IMG/VR virus record: IMGVR_UViG_3300043444_000295
Location: 1-22,545 of that record
Direction: 5' to 3' (one strand)
DNA: 22,545 nt
From: a virus
In this document: positions 7,220 to 18,830 of the stretch, piece by piece
How positions within the stretch are numbered: the first letter of the stretch is position 1
Layout of the letters: each line of letters starts with the position of its first letter
Notes under the pieces: model-generated
What the model saw: only the letters and a program-made list of their open reading frames with translations
Databases searched by the model: none
What the model was told of the DNA's origin: nothing
Position numbers and translations under genes: made by a program

Positions 7220-8002
7220 ATGGCAGAAATCAAACATTTAAATGAATCCGAAATCCAACAAATGACCTTCGATTGGAGGTATAGAGGTTGGACAGTATTA
7301 CAACTTCTTACTGAAGAAGAGTGTGATGAAATCAACGAAGAATTGGAACGATTAAGACAAGAACGTTCTAAGACTACAAAAGAAAATGGAGATGATTGGG
7401 GTGAGTGGGACCCGTTTGCATATCCACATAAAATTTCACCAAAATTAGAAAAATTATTTGCACATCCAAAAGTTTTGGAAGCATGTGAATTTCTTATGAA
7501 AGGAGAGGTTGTTGGATTACAAACTTGGTCATATTTTAAACCACCAGGACAATTGGGCAGAGACCAACATCAAAACGCTTTCTACACAGGATGTGGACAC
7601 AATGAAATCATTAATACCGCATTGGCATTAGATAATCACGATAAAGAAAATGGAGCAGTATGGAACTATGAGGGTTCTCATAGATTGCCTGTTTTACCAA
7701 TTGAAGTGGATGAGGAAAGAACAAAAACAAATCCAACATTTTGGAGAAACGAAAGAGGTAAACCATGTGTTATGCCAGAGGGACATGATTTCCGTAAAGT
7801 AGAAGGTTATTTGCAAAAAGGACAAGTGGTATTATTGCATTCGCATTGTGTACATGGTTCAGAACCAAATAACTCTAATAGATTCAGAAGAAACTTCTTA
7901 GGTGGATATTTGAAGAAAGGTGCATATTTTAATCAAGGTGGTCATATGAAAAGAGAACCAATTGATATGTACGAACTTCGTCAAAAACATTGGGGAGAAT
8001 AA
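7220..8002 (+). CDS. PhyH-type Fe(II)/2-oxoglutarate dioxygenase-like protein
   Basis: This 260-residue protein matches the phytanoyl-CoA dioxygenase (PhyH) family found in many T4-like marine phages. The N-terminal helix carries 'EEECDEINEELERLR' (about 32-46). 'RDQHQNAFY' (114-122) stands where the first metal-binding HxD motif is expected, with His117. 'ENGAVWNYEGSHRLP' (143-157) is a typical core strand. The distal metal His is probably His212 in 'HCVHGSEPNNSN', followed by an Arg (222-224) that would bind 2-oxoglutarate. The acidic ligand of HxD is Asn119 here, so normal iron binding is doubtful. The substrate is unknown. It is preceded by its own promoter-like site and a terminator, so it is separately expressed from the tail genes. 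Confidence 0.8.
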   Translation: MAEIKHLNESEIQQMTFDWRYRGWTVLQLLTEEECDEINEELERLRQERSKTTKENGDDWGEWDPFAYPHKISPKLEKLFAHPKVLEACEFLMKGEVVGLQTWSYFKPPGQLGRDQHQNAFYTGCGHNEIINTALALDNHDKENGAVWNYEGSHRLPVLPIEVDEERTKTNPTFWRNERGKPCVMPEGHDFRKVEGYLQKGQVVLLHSHCVHGSEPNNSNRFRRNFLGGYLKKGAYFNQGGHMKREPIDMYELRQKHWGE

Positions 8003-8040: not shown

Positions 8041-9309
8041 ATGAATTTAATAGAAACTAAATCTACCCTACATTTTTTTGTCAAATCAAATCCAACAATT
8101 GATTTGATAATTCCCGTATGGAGTTCTCGAAAAGCACATCCATTGACCAGTCGTATATCATTTGTATATTATAGAGAAACAAATGGAAACGATGGTATAA
8201 TTAATTTCAATCATATTGATGCAAAGAAAATCGATAAGTTTGATTTGAATATCTTTATTACTGATACAACAAAAGTATTAGGAAGTAGATATATAAGCAA
8301 ATTGGGACTTGATTATGAATGGGTTTATTTCGAATCATATGGAAAACCATTTGTATTTGATGAATTCGTAGAATCGGTTTATAGGGGGTATAGAATTGAT
8401 TTTAAAGAATTAAATGATTGTGTACCTCTAATGAAGTGGTATGGTATATTAAAAACAATACCGACAATAAATCATATAAATGATTGGGATGTAAACTATT
8501 CATCAGCTATCCGAACATTAGGGAGGCTGGAGGGGGCGGGGGTGAAAGTCGAAGAAGAAAAATTTATTGATAGTTTTAATTTTGATGCGTCTTATCTCAA
8601 AAGAGGATTGGTGTACACACAATACAATCCATATACAATAACGGGTAGACCTTCGAATAGGCATTTAAATGTAAACTATTCTGCCTTAAACAAATCGGAT
8701 GGGAGTAGGGAATGTTTTGTTAGTAGGAATCCAAACGGAACTCTCTTACAATTCGATTATGAGTCTTATCACTTACGATTGATAGCGGGATTAATAGGGT
8801 ACAAACTTCCAACAAACATATCGGCTCACCAATATTTTGCCGACATCTATGGTACGGATTACGAAACTTCCAAAGGGATTACATTCCGTTATCTTTATGG
8901 GGGGTTAGATGATACGGCTCGAAGGATTCCGTTTTTTCAAAAGGTGGATGAATATATCAAATCCGTTTACCAAAAGTTCGTAATTTCCGGTCGTTTAACG
9001 ACTCCTCTATATAAGAGGGAAATTCATTTTAGTAGAATCGAAGGGGCGACTGAACAAAAGGTATTTAACTATTTGTTACAAGCGTTGGAAACTGAAGTGA
9101 ACTATATGAAGATGAAATCCATCTTTGATTGTTTTGAGGGAAAGATGAGTAAACCGATTTTATATACATATGATGCGTTCTTAATTGACCTACATCCAAT
9201 TGAAAGAGATGTGATTATTAGTTCAGTAAAAGAAGCAATGGAAATGGGTGGATTCCCTGTCAAAGTGGAAGAAGGAACTAATTATGGTAATTTAGTTGGA
9301 ATAGATTAA
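8041..9309 (+). CDS. Compact divergent family A DNA polymerase
   Basis: This 422-residue protein has a recognisable family A polymerase core in residues 155-422. 'TITGRPSNRHLN' (199-210) matches the T-x-x-GR motif. Motif A is 'FDYESYHLRLIA' (238-249) with catalytic Asp239. Motif B is 'KGITFRYLYG' (278-287) with Lys278, Phe282 and Tyr286 in the canonical spacing. Motif C is 'YTYDAFLIDL' (375-384) with catalytic Asp378. Against E. coli Pol I, the steric-gate Glu710 aligns with His244, Arg754 with Tyr274, and the His and Glu of the HDE motif with Tyr377 and Ala379. Residues 1-150 are unlike a normal 3'-5' exonuclease, and no complete DEDD set was recognised. It presumably copies the phage genome, but the fingers and thumb look shortened. 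The gene has G-runs unusual for its surroundings. Confidence 0.78.
   Translation: MNLIETKSTLHFFVKSNPTIDLIIPVWSSRKAHPLTSRISFVYYRETNGNDGIINFNHIDAKKIDKFDLNIFITDTTKVLGSRYISKLGLDYEWVYFESYGKPFVFDEFVESVYRGYRIDFKELNDCVPLMKWYGILKTIPTINHINDWDVNYSSAIRTLGRLEGAGVKVEEEKFIDSFNFDASYLKRGLVYTQYNPYTITGRPSNRHLNVNYSALNKSDGSRECFVSRNPNGTLLQFDYESYHLRLIAGLIGYKLPTNISAHQYFADIYGTDYETSKGITFRYLYGGLDDTARRIPFFQKVDEYIKSVYQKFVISGRLTTPLYKREIHFSRIEGATEQKVFNYLLQALETEVNYMKMKSIFDCFEGKMSKPILYTYDAFLIDLHPIERDVIISSVKEAMEMGGFPVKVEEGTNYGNLVGID
8521..8542 (+). other. G-rich tract inside the polymerase gene
   Basis: Between 8521 and 8542 the + strand has G runs of 3, 2, 2, 5 and 5, separated by short loops, in an otherwise AT-rich genome. 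It encodes Gly-Arg-Leu-Glu-Gly-Ala-Gly. The run pattern could form a two- or three-layer G-quadruplex in the transcript or coding strand. Other G runs in the same gene are at 8384-8388 (five) and 8899-8904 (six). Confidence 0.4.
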
Positions 9310-9361: not shown

Positions 9362-11662
9362 ATGATTCCAAATTTCAAAGAAATCTTATTAGAATTAAGT
9401 TATAGAGTAGAGGGCGGAATACCTGATTTAAACAAAGAATCTCATACTAATCATTTAATTGATATTTTAAGAGAGAATGGTATATCCGATGCAGCACATC
9501 TTGCACAAAAAGCGAGAGTGTATTTTTCTTATTTAAATGAAGCTTCTCCAAAGAAAGGTGATGCTGGATTAGAAGCGGCAGCTGAGAAGTTTAAAAATAA
9601 AAAATATAAAACATCAAAGGGTGGCGAAGTATCATTTACAACTGCTATTAATTATGGATATCAGGGTAAAGAAAATGATTCGGCACACATACAAGCGATG
9701 AATGATTTTGAAACATTTATCGATAGTTCAAAAGGTAAATATGGTACGATGGAAAAACCAAAACAACCTGATGAACCAAAACAAAATATTTTCGGTAAAG
9801 ATAAGGGTGGAAAAGTTTTTGAACCATCTACTCCAATGAAAGTACCTACTACTAAAGTAAAGGATGAACCAACCCCATCACAATCAACGGGTAAGTTTTC
9901 CGATATAGTTGCAGGAATGCCGGCAAATAAAAATACCGAAAAGCAATTAAACAATACAATCCAAACTCAAAAATCTATATTAGATACTTTTGATAAGCTT
10001 TCAAAAATGAGTGGAAATCAGCATGCAGCTGAACATAAGCAAGTTAAAGCATTGCTTGAGAAATTGTTTAATGGGCAAAAATTAAATCCTTCAGAACAAA
10101 AATTAACCGCTCAATATATTAGAGTAGCTGAACCAACTGAAAATAATCCAAATGCTACTAAATTCTATTTAGCTAAGCAACCGGGTAATTTTAAGAGTCA
10201 GGGACCAACTGCTAGAATAAGAATATATGTTGGAGCAAAGGATTCATCTAATCCTATACATGGTGCATTTGGTAAATTTGTTAGAGCAAACGGTATGGCT
10301 GAATTATCACCATCTACATTTGGTGGTAAACTTTCAACTGCAAACCAAACATATGTTGGTAAAGATGGTAAGACTAAACTTTTAAAAGATGCTAGTCAGG
10401 TTAAAGAAACAAACGATGGAATAGTACAATCTGTTAAAATAGGTGGACTTAATATCGTTAGAATAGACCCTAAAACGGCTAAAACGGAAACCGAAAGAAA
10501 GAAGATAGAAAAGAATAATAGAACAATGGATGAATACGCTGAAAAAATCAAAGCCGGCGATTTAGATTTCATTGATATGGATAGTGGTACTATTCCGGAT
10601 ACACCTGAAAATAGAGTAATTGTAATCAAAGAATCTATCGCTGGAATGGCAAATAGATTCAAAGCATTGGCGGATAAAGCACTTATAACAGATAATGAAA
10701 CATTGGGTATGATTAATCAATTATCCAATTTTTCAAAAAAAGACCCTAATCAAAATCCACAAGAGTGGTCAAACGAATTTGAAAGAATTCTATCTAATAT
10801 AGCAAACCACGAAGGAGAACCATCTTTGAAGGAAGGTTGGGCAAATTACGCCGAAGTATTTGTGGCTATAAGAGAAATGCACGATAATGGTAGGGGAACT
10901 CAAAATGGTAAGTGTGCATTATTACCACAAAGTACAACATTGGAAACAGTCGATGTTATTACTGTTTCAAACGGAAAGGGTGAAAATAGAATTGTAACAT
11001 TAGATGGTAGAAGCGTTAAGAAAGGTGTAGGAGGAGCTAGTGGATTGGGTTCTAAAGCTAGAAAATCTACTTACAAAAATGACACAAAAGGTTTAATTAA
11101 AAAAGGTGTTATAGAATTATCAGAATCACATGGTAAACCATTTGAATTAAAATTAGATAGTCCGTTAAAAGAACATCAAAAATTAAATAGCGAATACCAA
11201 CAATATTTAAAGCAAAGAGCTTTACAATTAAATGTAACTCCTCAATTTATTAAGCAAATTGAAGATGAATTGAAAAAAGGAGGTAAAGGTGCTAGTAAAG
11301 TTACAAGTGCACTTGCAAAAGTAATTTTAGAAAGACAGAAAGCAGGATTGGATGTTAGCCAAAATGTTGTAGATACATTGAGATTAAGATTGGAATCCAG
11401 ATATATATTTACTGAATTGGCACATGAAGCATATAATACAAATGTAGATGTGCAAGATTTTTCAAATGATTCTGTATTATCTCAAAAAGAAGATAGAGGT
11501 GGTGCAAAATTAGTAAAAGCACATAAGATTTTAATAGATAGTTCGGATGGTATTGATATATTGGCATATCCTAAGCCCGAATTTAACATTGGATTTGATT
11601 TAGAAGGAAGAAGTAGAAACCCAGGAGCAGGAAGATTCCATAATGAAAAAAAGAGAATATAA
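9362..11662 (+). CDS. Large unknown protein downstream of the polymerase
   Basis: This 766-residue protein is not recognised. Residues 1-62 form a compact helical module ('LELSYRVEGGIPDLN' followed by Leu/Ile/Ala-rich helices) that looks like a separate N-terminal domain. Residues 63-180 are a Lys/Pro/Gly-rich, probably flexible linker. Residues 190-760 are mixed, with a Lys/Glu-rich helix near 370-390, 'NHEGEPSLKEGWANYAEVFVAIREMHDNG' region residues near 480-510, and helical Lys-rich stretches near 590-680. The C-terminus is basic and Gly/Arg-rich ('EGRSRNPGAGRFHNEKKRI'). There is no signal peptide, membrane segment, P-loop or nuclease motif that I can support. It may be a DNA-bound or virion-internal protein, but this is a guess from its basic, domain-plus-linker build. 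The next gene starts three bases after its stop. Confidence 0.65.
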   Translation: MIPNFKEILLELSYRVEGGIPDLNKESHTNHLIDILRENGISDAAHLAQKARVYFSYLNEASPKKGDAGLEAAAEKFKNKKYKTSKGGEVSFTTAINYGYQGKENDSAHIQAMNDFETFIDSSKGKYGTMEKPKQPDEPKQNIFGKDKGGKVFEPSTPMKVPTTKVKDEPTPSQSTGKFSDIVAGMPANKNTEKQLNNTIQTQKSILDTFDKLSKMSGNQHAAEHKQVKALLEKLFNGQKLNPSEQKLTAQYIRVAEPTENNPNATKFYLAKQPGNFKSQGPTARIRIYVGAKDSSNPIHGAFGKFVRANGMAELSPSTFGGKLSTANQTYVGKDGKTKLLKDASQVKETNDGIVQSVKIGGLNIVRIDPKTAKTETERKKIEKNNRTMDEYAEKIKAGDLDFIDMDSGTIPDTPENRVIVIKESIAGMANRFKALADKALITDNETLGMINQLSNFSKKDPNQNPQEWSNEFERILSNIANHEGEPSLKEGWANYAEVFVAIREMHDNGRGTQNGKCALLPQSTTLETVDVITVSNGKGENRIVTLDGRSVKKGVGGASGLGSKARKSTYKNDTKGLIKKGVIELSESHGKPFELKLDSPLKEHQKLNSEYQQYLKQRALQLNVTPQFIKQIEDELKKGGKGASKVTSALAKVILERQKAGLDVSQNVVDTLRLRLESRYIFTELAHEAYNTNVDVQDFSNDSVLSQKEDRGGAKLVKAHKILIDSSDGIDILAYPKPEFNIGFDLEGRSRNPGAGRFHNEKKRI

Positions 11663-11665
11663 GAA

Positions 11666-12085
11666 ATGAATACACAACTTTTATGTTTGTTTACATATAA
11701 AAATGAATTAGAAACTTCATTGGATTTTATAATGAGTAATTACACATTAGTAAATCCGAATGTATTTGTATTAGAAAGTAAATTGATAGATACTGAATTA
11801 TTTATCACATTTAATATTGAAAAAGGAACTGCACCGATAGATTCTAATTGGAAAACTATTCTTGTACATAGAAAAAAGCAATCAAATACAATATACACAA
11901 TCAATGCTTTAAACGAAGTAGTTAAATCAAAGACTGGTGGTATGTTAGATAACTCTTATATGATTGATTGGGAAGAATTCAGAAATTGCATACTCACAAC
12001 TTCAAATTTAGGATATAAGAAAATTCCTACAAAAGTTTATAAAAACTTAAAAACAAATTCTTCGGAAGAAAGTTTGGAATATTAA
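11666..12085 (+). CDS. Small unknown protein
   Basis: This 139-residue protein is unrecognised. It has alternating beta and helix: hydrophobic start (residues 3-9), a 'LFITFNIE' strand near 50-57, 'TILVHRKKQSNTIYTINALNEVV' region near 64-87 and 'DWEEFRNCILTT' near 100-111. I recall similar 'TIYTINALN' stretches in other T4-like phage hypothetical proteins, but cannot name a family. There is no membrane segment. The start follows the stop of the 766-residue gene by three bases, so the two are probably translated from one mRNA. The stop is followed directly by the next promoter. Confidence 0.65.
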   Translation: MNTQLLCLFTYKNELETSLDFIMSNYTLVNPNVFVLESKLIDTELFITFNIEKGTAPIDSNWKTILVHRKKQSNTIYTINALNEVVKSKTGGMLDNSYMIDWEEFRNCILTTSNLGYKKIPTKVYKNLKTNSSEESLEY

Positions 12086-13021: not shown

Positions 13022-13879
13022 ATGGACATTAAACTTGCCCTATCGAGATTCAACTCGTTACAAAACACTTCCAAAAAATCAGATTCACTTTGGAAGCCAA
13101 CTCCAGGGAAACATCAAATTCGTATCGTTCCCTACAAATTCAATAAAGATATTCCTTTCATTGAATTATTCTTTCACTACAACATTAACAACAAAACTTA
13201 TTTGAGTCCTGCATCATTCGGCAGACCTGACCCTATCGTAGAGTTTGCTGAAAAGTTAAAACGCACTGGCGATACTGATGATTGGAAAGCAGGTAAGAAG
13301 ATGGAGCCGAAATTGAGAACTTTCGCACCTGTTATCGTAAGAGGTAAAGAGAATGAAGGTATTAAATTTTGGGGATTTGGTAAGACTGTTTATCAGGATA
13401 TCTTAGGTTACATCGCTGACCCGGATTACGGAGATATTACTGACCCAATGAGTGGTAGAGATATCGTATTAGAAATCACTTCAGCAGAAGAATCTAACGC
13501 AGCTTATCCAACAACTACAATTCGTGTTAAACCATCTCAATCTAAATTAGTAGAAGATGCTTCTCAAATTGAATCTCTATTGGAGAATCAAAAGAATATT
13601 ACTGAATTATATTCAGAATTATCTTACGCTGAATTAAAAACAGTATTAGAGAATTGGTTAAATCCAGGTTCAGCAACAACCGGAGCTGATGAAGTAGTTG
13701 AGGAATTGGAAGCACCGAAACCAGCTCCAAAGCAAGCATCAGTATCAACTGATATGGGTGGTACATCTCCTATTGGTGGTGAAGGTATTGGTGATTTACC
13801 TTGGGAAAAAGAAGAAGCTGCAGCTCCAAAAGCAAAAGATGATGTAGCATCTGCATTTGAAGATTTATTCAATAACTAA
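13022..13879 (+). CDS. gp32-like single-stranded DNA-binding protein
   Basis: This 285-residue protein has the layout of T4 gp32 (301 residues). It has a short N-terminal segment (1-25) for cooperativity, an OB-fold core (about 28-200) with 'KHQIRIVPYKF' (30-40), a 'HYNINNKTYLSP' strand (52-63) and 'KFWGFGKTVYQDILGYI' (115-131), and an acidic C-terminal tail (about 222-285) ending in 'AFEDLFNN'. It coats single-stranded DNA during replication and recombination, and its tail is expected to recruit partners. Unlike T4 gp32 it contains no cysteine, so the zinc site is absent: His52 aligns with a T4 zinc ligand, but the CPVC segment aligns with DPIV (70-73). The uvsX gene follows after 14 bases. 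Confidence 0.82.
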   Translation: MDIKLALSRFNSLQNTSKKSDSLWKPTPGKHQIRIVPYKFNKDIPFIELFFHYNINNKTYLSPASFGRPDPIVEFAEKLKRTGDTDDWKAGKKMEPKLRTFAPVIVRGKENEGIKFWGFGKTVYQDILGYIADPDYGDITDPMSGRDIVLEITSAEESNAAYPTTTIRVKPSQSKLVEDASQIESLLENQKNITELYSELSYAELKTVLENWLNPGSATTGADEVVEELEAPKPAPKQASVSTDMGGTSPIGGEGIGDLPWEKEEAAAPKAKDDVASAFEDLFNN

Positions 13880-13893
13880 AATTAGGTTACATT

Positions 13894-15000
13894 ATGGCCA
13901 AAGTACAAGAGGATTTAGCAAGTATTCTTGCAGACTCGTTAAACAAACAAAATAAGGATGGTAGAATTGCATACTTCCTTACGGATGGTGGGGGTGATGC
14001 TCCTACTAACGTAAAAGATTGGTTATCTACGGGTAACGCTCTTTTGGATGTAGCAATCTCCAATAGACCTTATGGTGGTTTGCCGGTTGGCCGTATAGCA
14101 GAGATTACGGGTTTAGAGCAAAGTGGAAAATCTTTGCTCTCCGCCCATCTGTTAGCTGAAACACAAAAGAAAGGTGGAGTAGCAGTACTAATTGATACAG
14201 AAACTGCCGTTAATAGGGAGTTTTTGGAAGCGATTGGTGTTGATATTTCAAAATTACTTTATGTATCGGTAGATACGGTTGAAGGTATTTTTGAAGCTTG
14301 TGAAACTATCATTGAAAAAATCAGAACTTCCGATAAGAATAGATTAGTTACGATTGTAGTTGACTCAGTTGCAGCTGCATCTACTAAGAAAGAATTGGAA
14401 GCCGATTACGATAAAGATGGTTACGCTACTGATAAAGCAATTATCATCTCCAAAGCGATGAGAAAGATTACGAATATGATTGGTAGACAAAATATTTGTT
14501 TAGTGTTTACTAACCAACTTCGTCAGAAAATGAACGCAATGGCATTTAGTGACCCTTGGACAACATCAGGTGGTAAAGCATTAGCATTCCACGCATCGGT
14601 AAGATTGAGATTAAAGTCTATGGGACAATTAAAAGTAGGTGATAGAATTGTGGGTATTAAGGTGAGAGCACAAATTGTAAAAAATCGTTTAGGACCACCA
14701 TTAAGACACGCCGATTTCTCTATTTTCTTCGATAGAGGTATCGATAACTACGGAAGTTGGTTAGGAACAATGAAAGATAATAAATTAGTAAAACAAGGAG
14801 GTGCTTGGTATGAATATACCGACACCGATACTGGTGAAATTATTAAATTCCAATCAAAGGATTTCGCAGATATTCTTAAAAATGAAGAGTTAAAAGACCA
14901 AATTTATCGTAAGATATGTGAGGTTAGTATTTTACAATATAAAAGTTCTGCTTCAGATGAAGTTGATGAAACAACGGATGTAGCCAATGAGTCAGATTAA
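13894..15000 (+). CDS. uvsX: UvsX/RecA-type recombinase
   Basis: This 368-residue protein is a RecA-fold strand-exchange ATPase, the phage UvsX counterpart. The Walker A motif is 'GLEQSGKS' (73-80). The catalytic Glu is likely Glu103 in 'DTETA'. Walker B is 'LVTIVVDSVAA' (151-161) with Asp157. 'FTNQLRQKMNAMAFSDPWTT' (205-224) covers the sensor Gln208 and the DNA-binding loop region. 'SGGKALAFHASVRLRL' (225-240) is the following conserved helix and strand. The C-terminus is acidic ('SDEVDETTDVANESD'). It should load onto gp32-coated DNA to drive recombination-dependent replication and repair. The next gene overlaps its last 14 bases in another frame, so the two are probably translationally coupled. 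Confidence 0.9.
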   Translation: MAKVQEDLASILADSLNKQNKDGRIAYFLTDGGGDAPTNVKDWLSTGNALLDVAISNRPYGGLPVGRIAEITGLEQSGKSLLSAHLLAETQKKGGVAVLIDTETAVNREFLEAIGVDISKLLYVSVDTVEGIFEACETIIEKIRTSDKNRLVTIVVDSVAAASTKKELEADYDKDGYATDKAIIISKAMRKITNMIGRQNICLVFTNQLRQKMNAMAFSDPWTTSGGKALAFHASVRLRLKSMGQLKVGDRIVGIKVRAQIVKNRLGPPLRHADFSIFFDRGIDNYGSWLGTMKDNKLVKQGGAWYEYTDTDTGEIIKFQSKDFADILKNEELKDQIYRKICEVSILQYKSSASDEVDETTDVANESD

Positions 15001-16039
15001 TAAAAAGTATTTAGATATACTAAAACAAATAGATGAGGAACATAAAAGTTTTGGAGATTTACAAAAAAACTCTAAAACATTAGTTATTGATGGTCTTAAT
15101 ACCTTCATTCGTTCCTGGTCAACTGCACCAAACCTAAATGATAATGGTGACCATATTGGAGGAATAGTCGGTACTTTAAAAAGTATCGGCTACGCCATCC
15201 GTTTAATTAACCCTACCAGAGTTATTATAACTTTTGATGGTAAAGGTGGTTCAGATAGTAGAAAAAAGATTTACGCAGGATATAAGGCGGATAGAGCTAA
15301 AAACAAAATCCGTCTTAATCGTGCTATTACTGTTGATATGAATCCTGAAGATGAACAGGTTTCAATGAGAAGGCAGATGGTAGCATTGGCAGATTTATTA
15401 ACATATCTACCCGTAACTATTATGCTATATGATGGAATTGAAGCAGATGATGTAATGGCTTATATTGCCACTCAATTAAGAAAAGATGATGAGAAAGTAG
15501 TTTTAATGTCATCTGATAAAGATTTCTTACAATTAGTAAATAAAGATGTAAGTGTATATTCTCCATCTAAAAAGAAAATCTATAACATAGATGAAGTTAA
15601 AGAAGAATTTACAATCCATCCACATAACTTTATCAATTTCAGAATGATTGATGGTGATAAATCCGATAATATAGAAGGTATTAGTGGATTGGGTATTAAA
15701 ACCATTATTAAAGCATTTCCTATTTTAACCGAAGAAACATATCATTCAACCAAAAGTATGTTAGAATATATCAATAGTTTGGATAAAAAATCCAAAGCAC
15801 ATGATTTATTTGAAAATAATTTGGAAATTTTGGAAAGAAATCGTAGATTAATGCAATTATCTGAACCGGAATTTAGTGGTAATCTTAGAATGAAAATTAT
15901 GGATAGATATGATGAACCAATTCCTAAATTCGATAAACAAGGATTTCTAAAATCGGGTTTAAGAAGTGGTGTAATTGATGCGTTTAAAGATATAAACGAT
16001 TGGTTACAATCAACATTTTCCCATTTATCAAAATTTTAA
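14987..16039 (+). CDS. FEN/Rnh-type 5'-3' nuclease
   Basis: This 350-residue protein matches the PIN/FEN superfamily that includes T4 RNase H (305 residues), which removes RNA primers and flaps from lagging-strand fragments. 'LVIDGLNTF' (32-40) holds the first metal-binding Asp35. 'ITFDGKGGSDSRKKIYAGYK' (81-100) holds Asp84 and the basic arch-helix residues. 'DGIEADDVMAYI' (149-160) supplies Glu152, Asp154 and Asp155. 'SSDKDFLQL' (175-183) supplies Asp177 and Asp179. 'DGDKSDNIEGISGLGIKT' (222-239) holds Asp residues and the helix-hairpin-helix DNA grip. All expected acidic residues are present, so it should be active. It overlaps uvsX by 14 bases and abuts the next gene. Confidence 0.88.
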   Translation: MSQINKKYLDILKQIDEEHKSFGDLQKNSKTLVIDGLNTFIRSWSTAPNLNDNGDHIGGIVGTLKSIGYAIRLINPTRVIITFDGKGGSDSRKKIYAGYKADRAKNKIRLNRAITVDMNPEDEQVSMRRQMVALADLLTYLPVTIMLYDGIEADDVMAYIATQLRKDDEKVVLMSSDKDFLQLVNKDVSVYSPSKKKIYNIDEVKEEFTIHPHNFINFRMIDGDKSDNIEGISGLGIKTIIKAFPILTEETYHSTKSMLEYINSLDKKSKAHDLFENNLEILERNRRLMQLSEPEFSGNLRMKIMDRYDEPIPKFDKQGFLKSGLRSGVIDAFKDINDWLQSTFSHLSKF

Positions 16040-17238: not shown

Positions 17239-17475
17239 ATGAAGTGTATTAAAGTAGTAAAAGAAACAAAAGACCAATCAATTGGCACAATCCGTAGAGT
17301 AGCAGATACAGAAGCGGATGTAAAAGTAAGTACCGGTGTGTGGGCATTTTGCCCGAAATCGGAATGGAAACTTGCAACTCGTAAACCAAAAACCGACCAA
17401 GCTACCGACCAAGCTACCGACCAAGTTAAACCGCAATCTAAAAAGCAATTAAGAAAACAAAAAGCTGAAGCATAA
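17239..17475 (+). CDS. Small protein with TDQA repeats
   Basis: This 78-residue protein has a small beta-rich N-terminal part (1-48) that resembles short phage proteins with a 'GTIRRVADTEADVKVSTGVW' type pattern. Then come a Thr-Asp-Gln-Ala repeat (about 52-63) and a Lys/Gln-rich tail. The beta part could form a small SH3-like barrel, but no family is claimed. It is one of the few genes here with a Shine-Dalgarno-like sequence (GGAG at 17228-17231, seven bases before the ATG). Its stop overlaps the helicase start by one base, so it is probably coupled to it. It may be a helicase-associated accessory factor, which is inference from position only. Confidence 0.6.
   Translation: MKCIKVVKETKDQSIGTIRRVADTEADVKVSTGVWAFCPKSEWKLATRKPKTDQATDQATDQVKPQSKKQLRKQKAEA
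17392..17425 (+). repeat. 12-bp tandem repeat, 2.8 copies
   Basis: The unit ACCGACCAAGCT occurs at 17392-17403 and 17404-17415 with a partial third copy at 17416-17425. Each unit encodes Thr-Asp-Gln-Ala. The copies are identical in DNA, which suggests recent slippage rather than conserved protein structure. Confidence 0.9.
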
Positions 17476-18830
17476 TGGAAGCAGTAGATACACTAACCAA
17501 ATATGGCAGTTCGTATCAATCTAAAGTTGTTGCTTCCCTCATCACAGATGTAAAGTTTTTAGAACAGGTAAACGAAATCACAAAACCAACATTCTTTGAA
17601 TCCGAAGCCAATAAATGGATTGTTGGAGAAATCTTGTCTTATTTCAACGAATTTAGAGCAGCTCCTACTATGGAGGTGTTTAAGATTAAAGTAGGAGATA
17701 TTGAAGATAAAGTTCTCAAACAAACTACTATTGAACAATTAAAGAGTGTTTACTTACAAGTCGGTTCTGAAGATTTAGCATATGTTAAGAAAGAATATCT
17801 TACTTTCGCCAAAAATCAAAAAGTAAAAGATGCCCTTTTAAAATCCGTAGAATTACTTAAAGCAGGTCAATACGATAAGATTATCGATACAATGACCGCT
17901 GCATCCAAAGTCGGTGTAGAAAACGATTTGGGATTGGATTACATCGATGAATTCGAATTGATTATGGAAGATGTCAAACGAAATTCAGTATCAACGGGAT
18001 GGGAGGTTATCGATGAATTGATGGATGGTGGTTTAGGACCAGGTGAATTGGGAGTTGTAATGGCACCATCGGGCATTGGTAAGAGTTGGTTCTTATCAAA
18101 GATAGCTTGTTCGGCATTACAAAAAGGTAAAAATGTTTTACATTATTCTTTGGAGTTATCCGAAAGTTATGTAGGACAAAGATATACTACAATTCTTACC
18201 GGAATTCAAACATCAGAACATAAAGAACGAAAGGATGAGATTATCAGAAAGATTAAAGGTACTCCAGGCAGAGTTCGTATTAAATACTATCCACCACAGT
18301 TCGCAACTTCTAAAACTCTTTCAGCTCATATTGAAAAGTTAAAACAAATTGGATTCGCACCGGATTTAATCATTATTGACTACGCCGATTTATTAAAGAG
18401 CGGTAGTGGAAGAGATGGTTTATACGCTGAATTAGGAGGAATCTATGAGGAATTGAGAGGATTGAGTGGTGAAACAGGTATTCCAATTTGGACAGCAACT
18501 CAAACAAATAGAGCAGCTATTGAACATGAAGTTATCCAAGCCGATTCGGTTGGTGATTCATACAAGAAAGTTCAAACGGCAGATTTCATTATGAGTGTGA
18601 GTAGAAAAACAAAGGATAAGTTATCAAACACAGGTCGTATTCACATCGTTAAAAATCGATTTGGTCCGGATGGCATGACATTTCCAGCTAAGATTGATAC
18701 TTTTCACGGTGTTATGGATGTATTCGCAGCAACATCAGCGGATGGTATAATTGCTCAAAAAGAATCCAAAAATGGAGAAAATTTGGAGAAAAAATTATTA
18801 CACAAAAAGTATGTAGAGAATATGGGATAA
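17475..18830 (+). CDS. DnaB-type replicative helicase (T4 gp41-like)
   Basis: This 451-residue protein is a superfamily 4 hexameric helicase. Residues 1-155 form an N-terminal helical domain like DnaB_N. The RecA-like core begins near 175. Walker A is 'APSGIGKS' (197-204), 'HYSLELSESYVGQR' (223-236) holds the catalytic Glu227, Walker B is 'LIIIDYADLL' (298-307) with Asp302, and 'IPIWTATQTNRAA' (336-348) is the conserved motif 3 with Gln343. 'GRIHIVKNRFGP' (387-398) fits motif 4 with the arginine finger. It should unwind DNA at the phage replication fork. No separate primase gene is seen in the window. The C-terminal 40 residues are Lys-rich and variable. It is followed by a 96-base gap with an inverted repeat. 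Confidence 0.88.
   Translation: MEAVDTLTKYGSSYQSKVVASLITDVKFLEQVNEITKPTFFESEANKWIVGEILSYFNEFRAAPTMEVFKIKVGDIEDKVLKQTTIEQLKSVYLQVGSEDLAYVKKEYLTFAKNQKVKDALLKSVELLKAGQYDKIIDTMTAASKVGVENDLGLDYIDEFELIMEDVKRNSVSTGWEVIDELMDGGLGPGELGVVMAPSGIGKSWFLSKIACSALQKGKNVLHYSLELSESYVGQRYTTILTGIQTSEHKERKDEIIRKIKGTPGRVRIKYYPPQFATSKTLSAHIEKLKQIGFAPDLIIIDYADLLKSGSGRDGLYAELGGIYEELRGLSGETGIPIWTATQTNRAAIEHEVIQADSVGDSYKKVQTADFIMSVSRKTKDKLSNTGRIHIVKNRFGPDGMTFPAKIDTFHGVMDVFAATSADGIIAQKESKNGENLEKKLLHKKYVENMG

Follow-up and report, generated by a model that had tools for sequence, protein, structure and literature searches.

A divPolA1-type, probably accessory family A DNA polymerase with histidine at the steric-gate position in T4-like phages

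The gene at positions 8041-9309 (+ strand) of a viral DNA stretch of 22,545 nucleotides (IMG/VR record IMGVR_UViG_3300043444_000295, referred to below as the window) encodes a protein of 422 amino acids which, judged by its sequence, is an ortholog of immuto35A_1, a founding member of the divPolA1 polymerases. This kind of polymerase was already published in 2024, and the window protein is a further member of it. With a probability of roughly 0.6 it is an accessory polymerase of low processivity and without proofreading, which would fill gaps or bypass lesions while a separate full-length polymerase performs the main replication. The evidence lies in its identity, the loss of domains, a conserved active site, a full-length polymerase in the relatives and a conserved operon.

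Identity, relatives and predicted fold

The open reading frame is intact (422 codons, from ATG to stop). In a profile search residues 183-422 matched the DNA polymerase family phrog_17 with an E-value of 2.9e-10. The match to Pfam DNA_pol_A (PF00476) reached an E-value of 2.9e-7 and 30.2 bits, which is under the curated cut-off of 34.3, yet some of the relatives pass it; the window protein is thus regarded as a divergent member of PF00476 by fold. The Pol I fold (Z 26.5 to Bst Pol I) and both catalytic aspartates of that family are present, and two of its features, the Glu710 gate and Arg754 of the RxxxK motif, are absent.

The small polymerase was compared by tblastn with 50,697 phage records, and its close relatives were found in LR756508 (an uncultured 484-kb phage), Microcystis phage Mel-JY01 and the Flavobacterium phages immuto. 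The match to immuto35A_1 had an E-value of 5e-33 and 30% identity over residues 120-414; the two proteins align over their full length and have the invariant residues in common. In existing annotation the immuto copy is a DNA polymerase family A and the Mel-JY01 copy a hypothetical protein (locus L003, 11989-13215); in the same phage the name DNA polymerase I was given to the FEN nuclease gene (17384-18424). A search for relatives by profile methods had been proposed in the first-pass annotation of the window, and several hundred further homologs were obtained by scanning viral contigs; from these, 197 unique full-length sequences (382-452 aa) were aligned. Three lineages can be distinguished among them: window-type, immuto-type (mostly 441 aa) and Mel-type (about 404 aa). 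Viral contigs searched with the LR756508 protein gave zero confirmed relatives, and the cellular homologs come down to two contigs of metagenome-assembled genomes, which are probably phage. The phages that carry the small polymerase are large tailed phages of about 150-240 kb with a T4-like gene set.

An AlphaFold2 model built on a 76-sequence alignment (pLDDT 92.9, pTM 0.89) was aligned by VIA-align with the large fragment of Bst Pol I (4dqp); at first pass a superposition on Klenow or T7 polymerase had been suggested. The alignment covers 391 of the 422 residues (Z 26.5, rmsd 3.7), and residue 1 of the model starts on residue 301 of the Bst chain. The best 50 Foldseek matches of the model are all family A DNA polymerases; no T7-like single-subunit RNA polymerase was noticed among these best 50, which would not exclude one.

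The N-terminal domain (residues 1-145, positions 8041-8475, +) probably has a degenerate 3'-5' exonuclease fold. D91 is the single invariant acid of residues 1-150, position 60 is always acidic (D or E) and position 135 is mostly E; with one invariant acid in 150 residues there is no conserved DEDD site. The structure aligns from residue 1 with the Bst large fragment, where this domain is vestigial, so that a degenerate exonuclease domain is the most likely identification. The first-pass annotation described the N-terminal 150 residues as not recognisable as an exonuclease, which is right for the sequence and probably not for the predicted structure; its view that the enzyme has no proofreading of its own is supported. 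The thumb had escaped its attention. Between Gly167 of the GVxV motif and the TGR motif there are 34 residues (167-200, positions 8539-8640, +) as compared with 122 in E. coli Pol I (G544 to T666), and hence the thumb is essentially absent; the model has one short helix only in its place (172-179). The fingers are shorter too. From the motif A aspartate to the motif B lysine there are 39 residues versus 53. Since the palm is kept, the fingers are short, the exonuclease is degenerate and there is almost no thumb, low processivity and no proofreading are to be expected.

Active-site residues

Motif A reads DYESYHLR (8755-8778, +), with the catalytic D239 and with H244 (codon 8770-8772) at the steric-gate position. 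H244 was assigned to the gate from ungapped profile alignments to Taq and E. coli Pol I, where D239-Y-E-S-Y-H244 pairs gap-free with D705-Y-S-Q-I-E710. By the same alignments, in the motif B region Y274...K278...F282...Y286-G287 (8860-8901, +), K278 pairs with K758 and Y274 with R754, so that the counterpart of the arginine is lost, and in motif C, YTYDAF (9163-9180, +), Y377-D378-A379 stands in place of H881-D882-E883. The TGRPSN motif of residues 201-206 (8641-8658, +) is the counterpart of E. coli T666-G-R668. Every residue call made at first pass (D239 and D378 retained, His244 for Glu710, Tyr274 for Arg754, YDA for HDE) proved correct.

The following residues are the same in 197 of 197 aligned relatives: Y195, T201, R203, N212, D239, H244, K278, F282, Y286, G287, K340, Y344, Q347, E350, T351, N354, Y375, Y377, D378 and A379. 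The position of Arg754 is occupied by Y, L, I, V or T, and by Arg in none of the 197. The gate histidine is also kept in two more divergent homologs (from the metagenome-assembled genome contigs), and between the small polymerase and its two nearest relatives dN/dS amounts to 0.09-0.10, a sign of purifying selection. Taken together, the invariance, the divergent homologs and the low dN/dS indicate that the histidine is a fixed trait of the family and not an error or a mark of a decayed gene. That the gate His, Tyr-Asp-Ala, Lys278, Phe282 and Tyr286 do not vary, and that Arg754 is always replaced, is stated nowhere in the text by Yutin et al. (2024, PMC11348598), although the alignments in their Fig. 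5 may show the gate His and YDA; nor does that text speak of the steric gate, histidine or sugar selection.

The enzyme was called active at first pass, and this is probably so, as both metal-binding aspartates, the catalytic lysine and other active-site residues do not vary among the 197 sequences. Arg754, the His and Glu of motif C and the thumb are nevertheless lost, and the activity could for this reason be weak or absent. That the protein is a pseudo-polymerase with little or no catalysis, serving the recombination module as a structural or DNA-binding component, is considered very improbable: these losses speak for it, but neither of the aspartates nor Lys278, Tyr286, Arg203 or Gln347 varies in the 197 sequences, and such constancy would be difficult to account for if there were no catalysis.

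Glu710 was termed universally conserved among A-family polymerases, and it is joined by a hydrogen bond to Tyr766, the two residues together shaping the nucleotide pocket (PMC4882331). In principle, His244 could replace Glu in the pairing with Tyr286, or loosen the gate, and an altered sugar selection is plausible. It might even be supposed that the relaxed gate makes the enzyme permissive for ribonucleotides, so that RNA or mixed primers would be made or extended, or a modified nucleotide incorporated. The change of a residue so described to His in all 197 relatives and both divergent homologs is consistent with such an enzyme, and the position has been a subject of work on ribonucleotide selection, as the title of the solved complex of Bst E658A with rCTP (4dqq) indicates. 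Phe282, however, is the residue of a DNA polymerase, and DnaG-type primases were found in relatives (immuto, Mel-JY01, LR756508, G002 and G003). Histidine is moreover a bulky residue: it could stand in the way of the 2'-OH, or take over from Glu the pairing with Tyr286, and this also counts against ribonucleotide permissiveness, which is held to be decidedly unlikely. In view of the same primases the small polymerase is not needed as a primase, and a sole primase role was rejected.

Full-length polymerases, gene neighbourhood and proposed role

A separate full-length polymerase is present in 18 of 22 related phage records. It is a PolB of about 850 aa in G001-G004, G006, Mel-JY01, G014-G016 and G018, and in split frames in LR756508 and G017; it is a PolA of about 780 aa in immuto and G009-G013. 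Thus family B goes with the window-type and Mel-type lineages and family A with immuto. The exonuclease domain of family B was found in all seven PolB-bearing records tested, and the full-length PolA of immuto has the exonuclease motif DTET and a Glu gate (DYTSLE). The four records with no second polymerase (G005, G007, G008 and G019) are all incomplete contigs, in which PolC (PF07733) had no match. Phrog_17, used as a probe for further polymerases, matched the small polymerase alone. The nearest long relative, G001, encodes a PolB together with a small polymerase 87% identical to that of the window, and therefore the window phage is expected to carry a PolB as well, outside its record of only 22.5 kb. 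In LR756508.1 (259645-266900; 1022 + 625 aa) and in G017 (53555-55532; 610 + 306 aa) the PolB matches lie in separate frames, which suggests an intein, an intron or a split gene.

The first-pass annotation had called the enzyme replicative or repair-related, and had named a second full-length polymerase in the genome as the finding that would speak against a replicase. Such polymerases, with exonuclease domains, are what the relatives encode, so the role of main replicase was rejected for them, and the small polymerase is probably not the main replicase. The idea of proofreading supplied by a separate 3'-5' exonuclease had a limited yield: PF00929 matched in LR756508 only, proofreading lies within PolB, and an RNase_T-type exonuclease as a proofreading partner was rejected.

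Downstream of the small polymerase, the window holds genes for a gp32-like single-strand DNA binding protein (13022-13879), a UvsX/RecA recombinase (13894-15000), a FEN or Pol I-type 5'-3' exonuclease (14987-16039) and a DnaB/gp41-like replicative helicase (17475-18830), all on the + strand; this order (gp32, uvsX, FEN, helicase) is common to all three lineages. Clamp-loader genes were found in Mel-JY01. Directly upstream, in most window-type loci, lies a gene of a PhyH-type 2-oxoglutarate dioxygenase (7220-8002 in the window). The genome of immuto phage MW353176.1 contains at 18607-36971 a set for 7-deazaguanine DNA modification (FolE, QueC, QueD, QueE, QueF and DpdA), and its DNA may accordingly be modified.

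All 97 loci whose flank is long enough encode, downstream of divPolA1, a protein of 129-151 aa. In the window it has 139 aa (11666-12085, +) and no assigned function, matched no named family, and is a possible partner of the polymerase. It is marked by the signature ILVHRKKxSNTxYTINALN. In the phage collection it is confined to six records, those that also encode the small polymerase, a co-occurrence that shared ancestry may explain, as these records are related. Its model (pLDDT 87.8) has an ACT- or ferredoxin-like N-terminal half and no clear match by fold (best Foldseek E-value 0.1, best Z 6.3). The text of Yutin et al. 2024 (PMC11348598) is silent on this downstream protein. In the window-type lineage the polymerase gene and the gene of the 139-aa protein are separated by one for a 766-aa protein with no family match (9362-11662 in the window). 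The motif at the N-terminus of this 766-aa protein, LLELSYRVEGGIPDL, is also present in LR756508, in the gene that follows the polymerase (L004:9019-10095).

Such a neighbourhood invites the opposite view, that divPolA1 is itself a main replisome polymerase, for instance for one strand or for recombination-primed synthesis, with the full-length enzyme secondary and with a partner, for example the 139-aa protein, supplying the function of the thumb. divPolA1 does head the replication operon in all lineages, it is retained whether the full-length polymerase is of family A, as in one lineage, or of family B, as in the others, the 139-aa protein always accompanies it, and an involvement in replication is suggested in the text of Yutin et al. 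(PMC11348598). Against this, it has no proofreading domain, a truncated thumb and no Arg754, whereas all long relatives except fragments encode a full-length polymerase, with an exonuclease domain wherever this was tested; a main-replisome role is on balance unlikely. A bolder combination, a natural His-gated family whose members would, in filling gaps or extending primers, incorporate ribonucleotides or a modified nucleotide and have the 139-aa protein as a replacement thumb or processivity subunit, is distinctly improbable.

According to the preferred reading of an accessory enzyme, the small polymerase would extend primers over short stretches and would act inside the gp32-UvsX-FEN-helicase module, leaving bulk replication to the separate full-length polymerase with its own exonuclease. 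The position of the gene beside those for FEN, the single-strand binding protein and the recombinase suggests gap filling or lesion bypass; the most likely role would be to fill the short gaps that are left after primer removal or after recombination and strand exchange, or to bypass lesions. The arrangement may be seen as a split Pol I, in which the 5' nuclease (14987-16039) and the polymerase (8041-9309) would work as separate proteins.

Many uncultured aquatic T4-like phages thus carry two polymerases, the small one having, throughout its family, His instead of Glu at the residue by which family A polymerases select the sugar. If this histidine alters sugar or lesion tolerance, the family offers a natural model of steric-gate function and perhaps a useful enzyme; if it does not, the family still shows that nature can do without Glu at the steric gate. 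A concrete candidate for a partner is the 139-aa protein, which is tightly linked.

Comparison with known systems

The large fragments of Klenow and Bst type share with the window protein the fold, the order of domains, motifs A, B and C, both aspartates and the counterparts of Lys758, Phe762 and Tyr766; the exonuclease domain of Bst is vestigial, as in the window protein. In contrast to them, the window protein has no thumb, shorter fingers and 422 aa versus about 605, and its family has His for Glu710, Tyr and other residues for Arg754 and YDA for HDE.

TV-Pol (Iyer et al. 2008, PMC2579912) is likewise a superfamily A polymerase without an exonuclease, known from viruses and mobile elements. 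TV-Pols, however, retain a two-helix (coiled-coil) thumb and the RxxxK motif, and their partners are D5 helicases or resolvases instead of a T4-like replisome (PMC2579912). Judged against that description, identity with TV-Pol was rejected, the window family having neither the two-helix thumb nor RxxxK.

Closer in kind is divPolA2 of barbaviruses, in the published description also a second, thumb-less and exonuclease-less family A polymerase beside a regular PolB, but one with its own unrelated N-terminal globular domain and a variable neighbourhood (PMC11348598). By this description the window protein, with its degenerate exonuclease N-terminus and fixed neighbourhood, is set apart from divPolA2.

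divPolA1 itself was described by Yutin et al. (2024, Virol J 21:200, PMC11348598) from three immuto phages and 11 others, and in the literature searched the name occurs in that paper and its preprint only. According to the text of the paper, these phages also encode a regular polymerase, which belongs to family A, B or C, and divPolA1 is a divergent family A enzyme whose thumb is truncated and whose exonuclease is inactivated; its palm residues are conserved, and so is its replication neighbourhood, from which it is argued that divPolA1 is itself involved in replication, the role of the regular polymerase being less obvious (PMC11348598). As far as these traits are given there, the window protein has all of them: it is orthologous, its palm keeps the catalytic residues (D239, D378, K278), the thumb is truncated and the exonuclease domain inactivated, replication genes follow in the operon, and a regular full-length polymerase is co-encoded in 18 of the 22 relatives. 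It differs from divPolA1 of immuto in that the two are about 26-30% identical, in its length of 422 aa versus 441, and in that the full-length polymerase of the window lineage belongs to family B.
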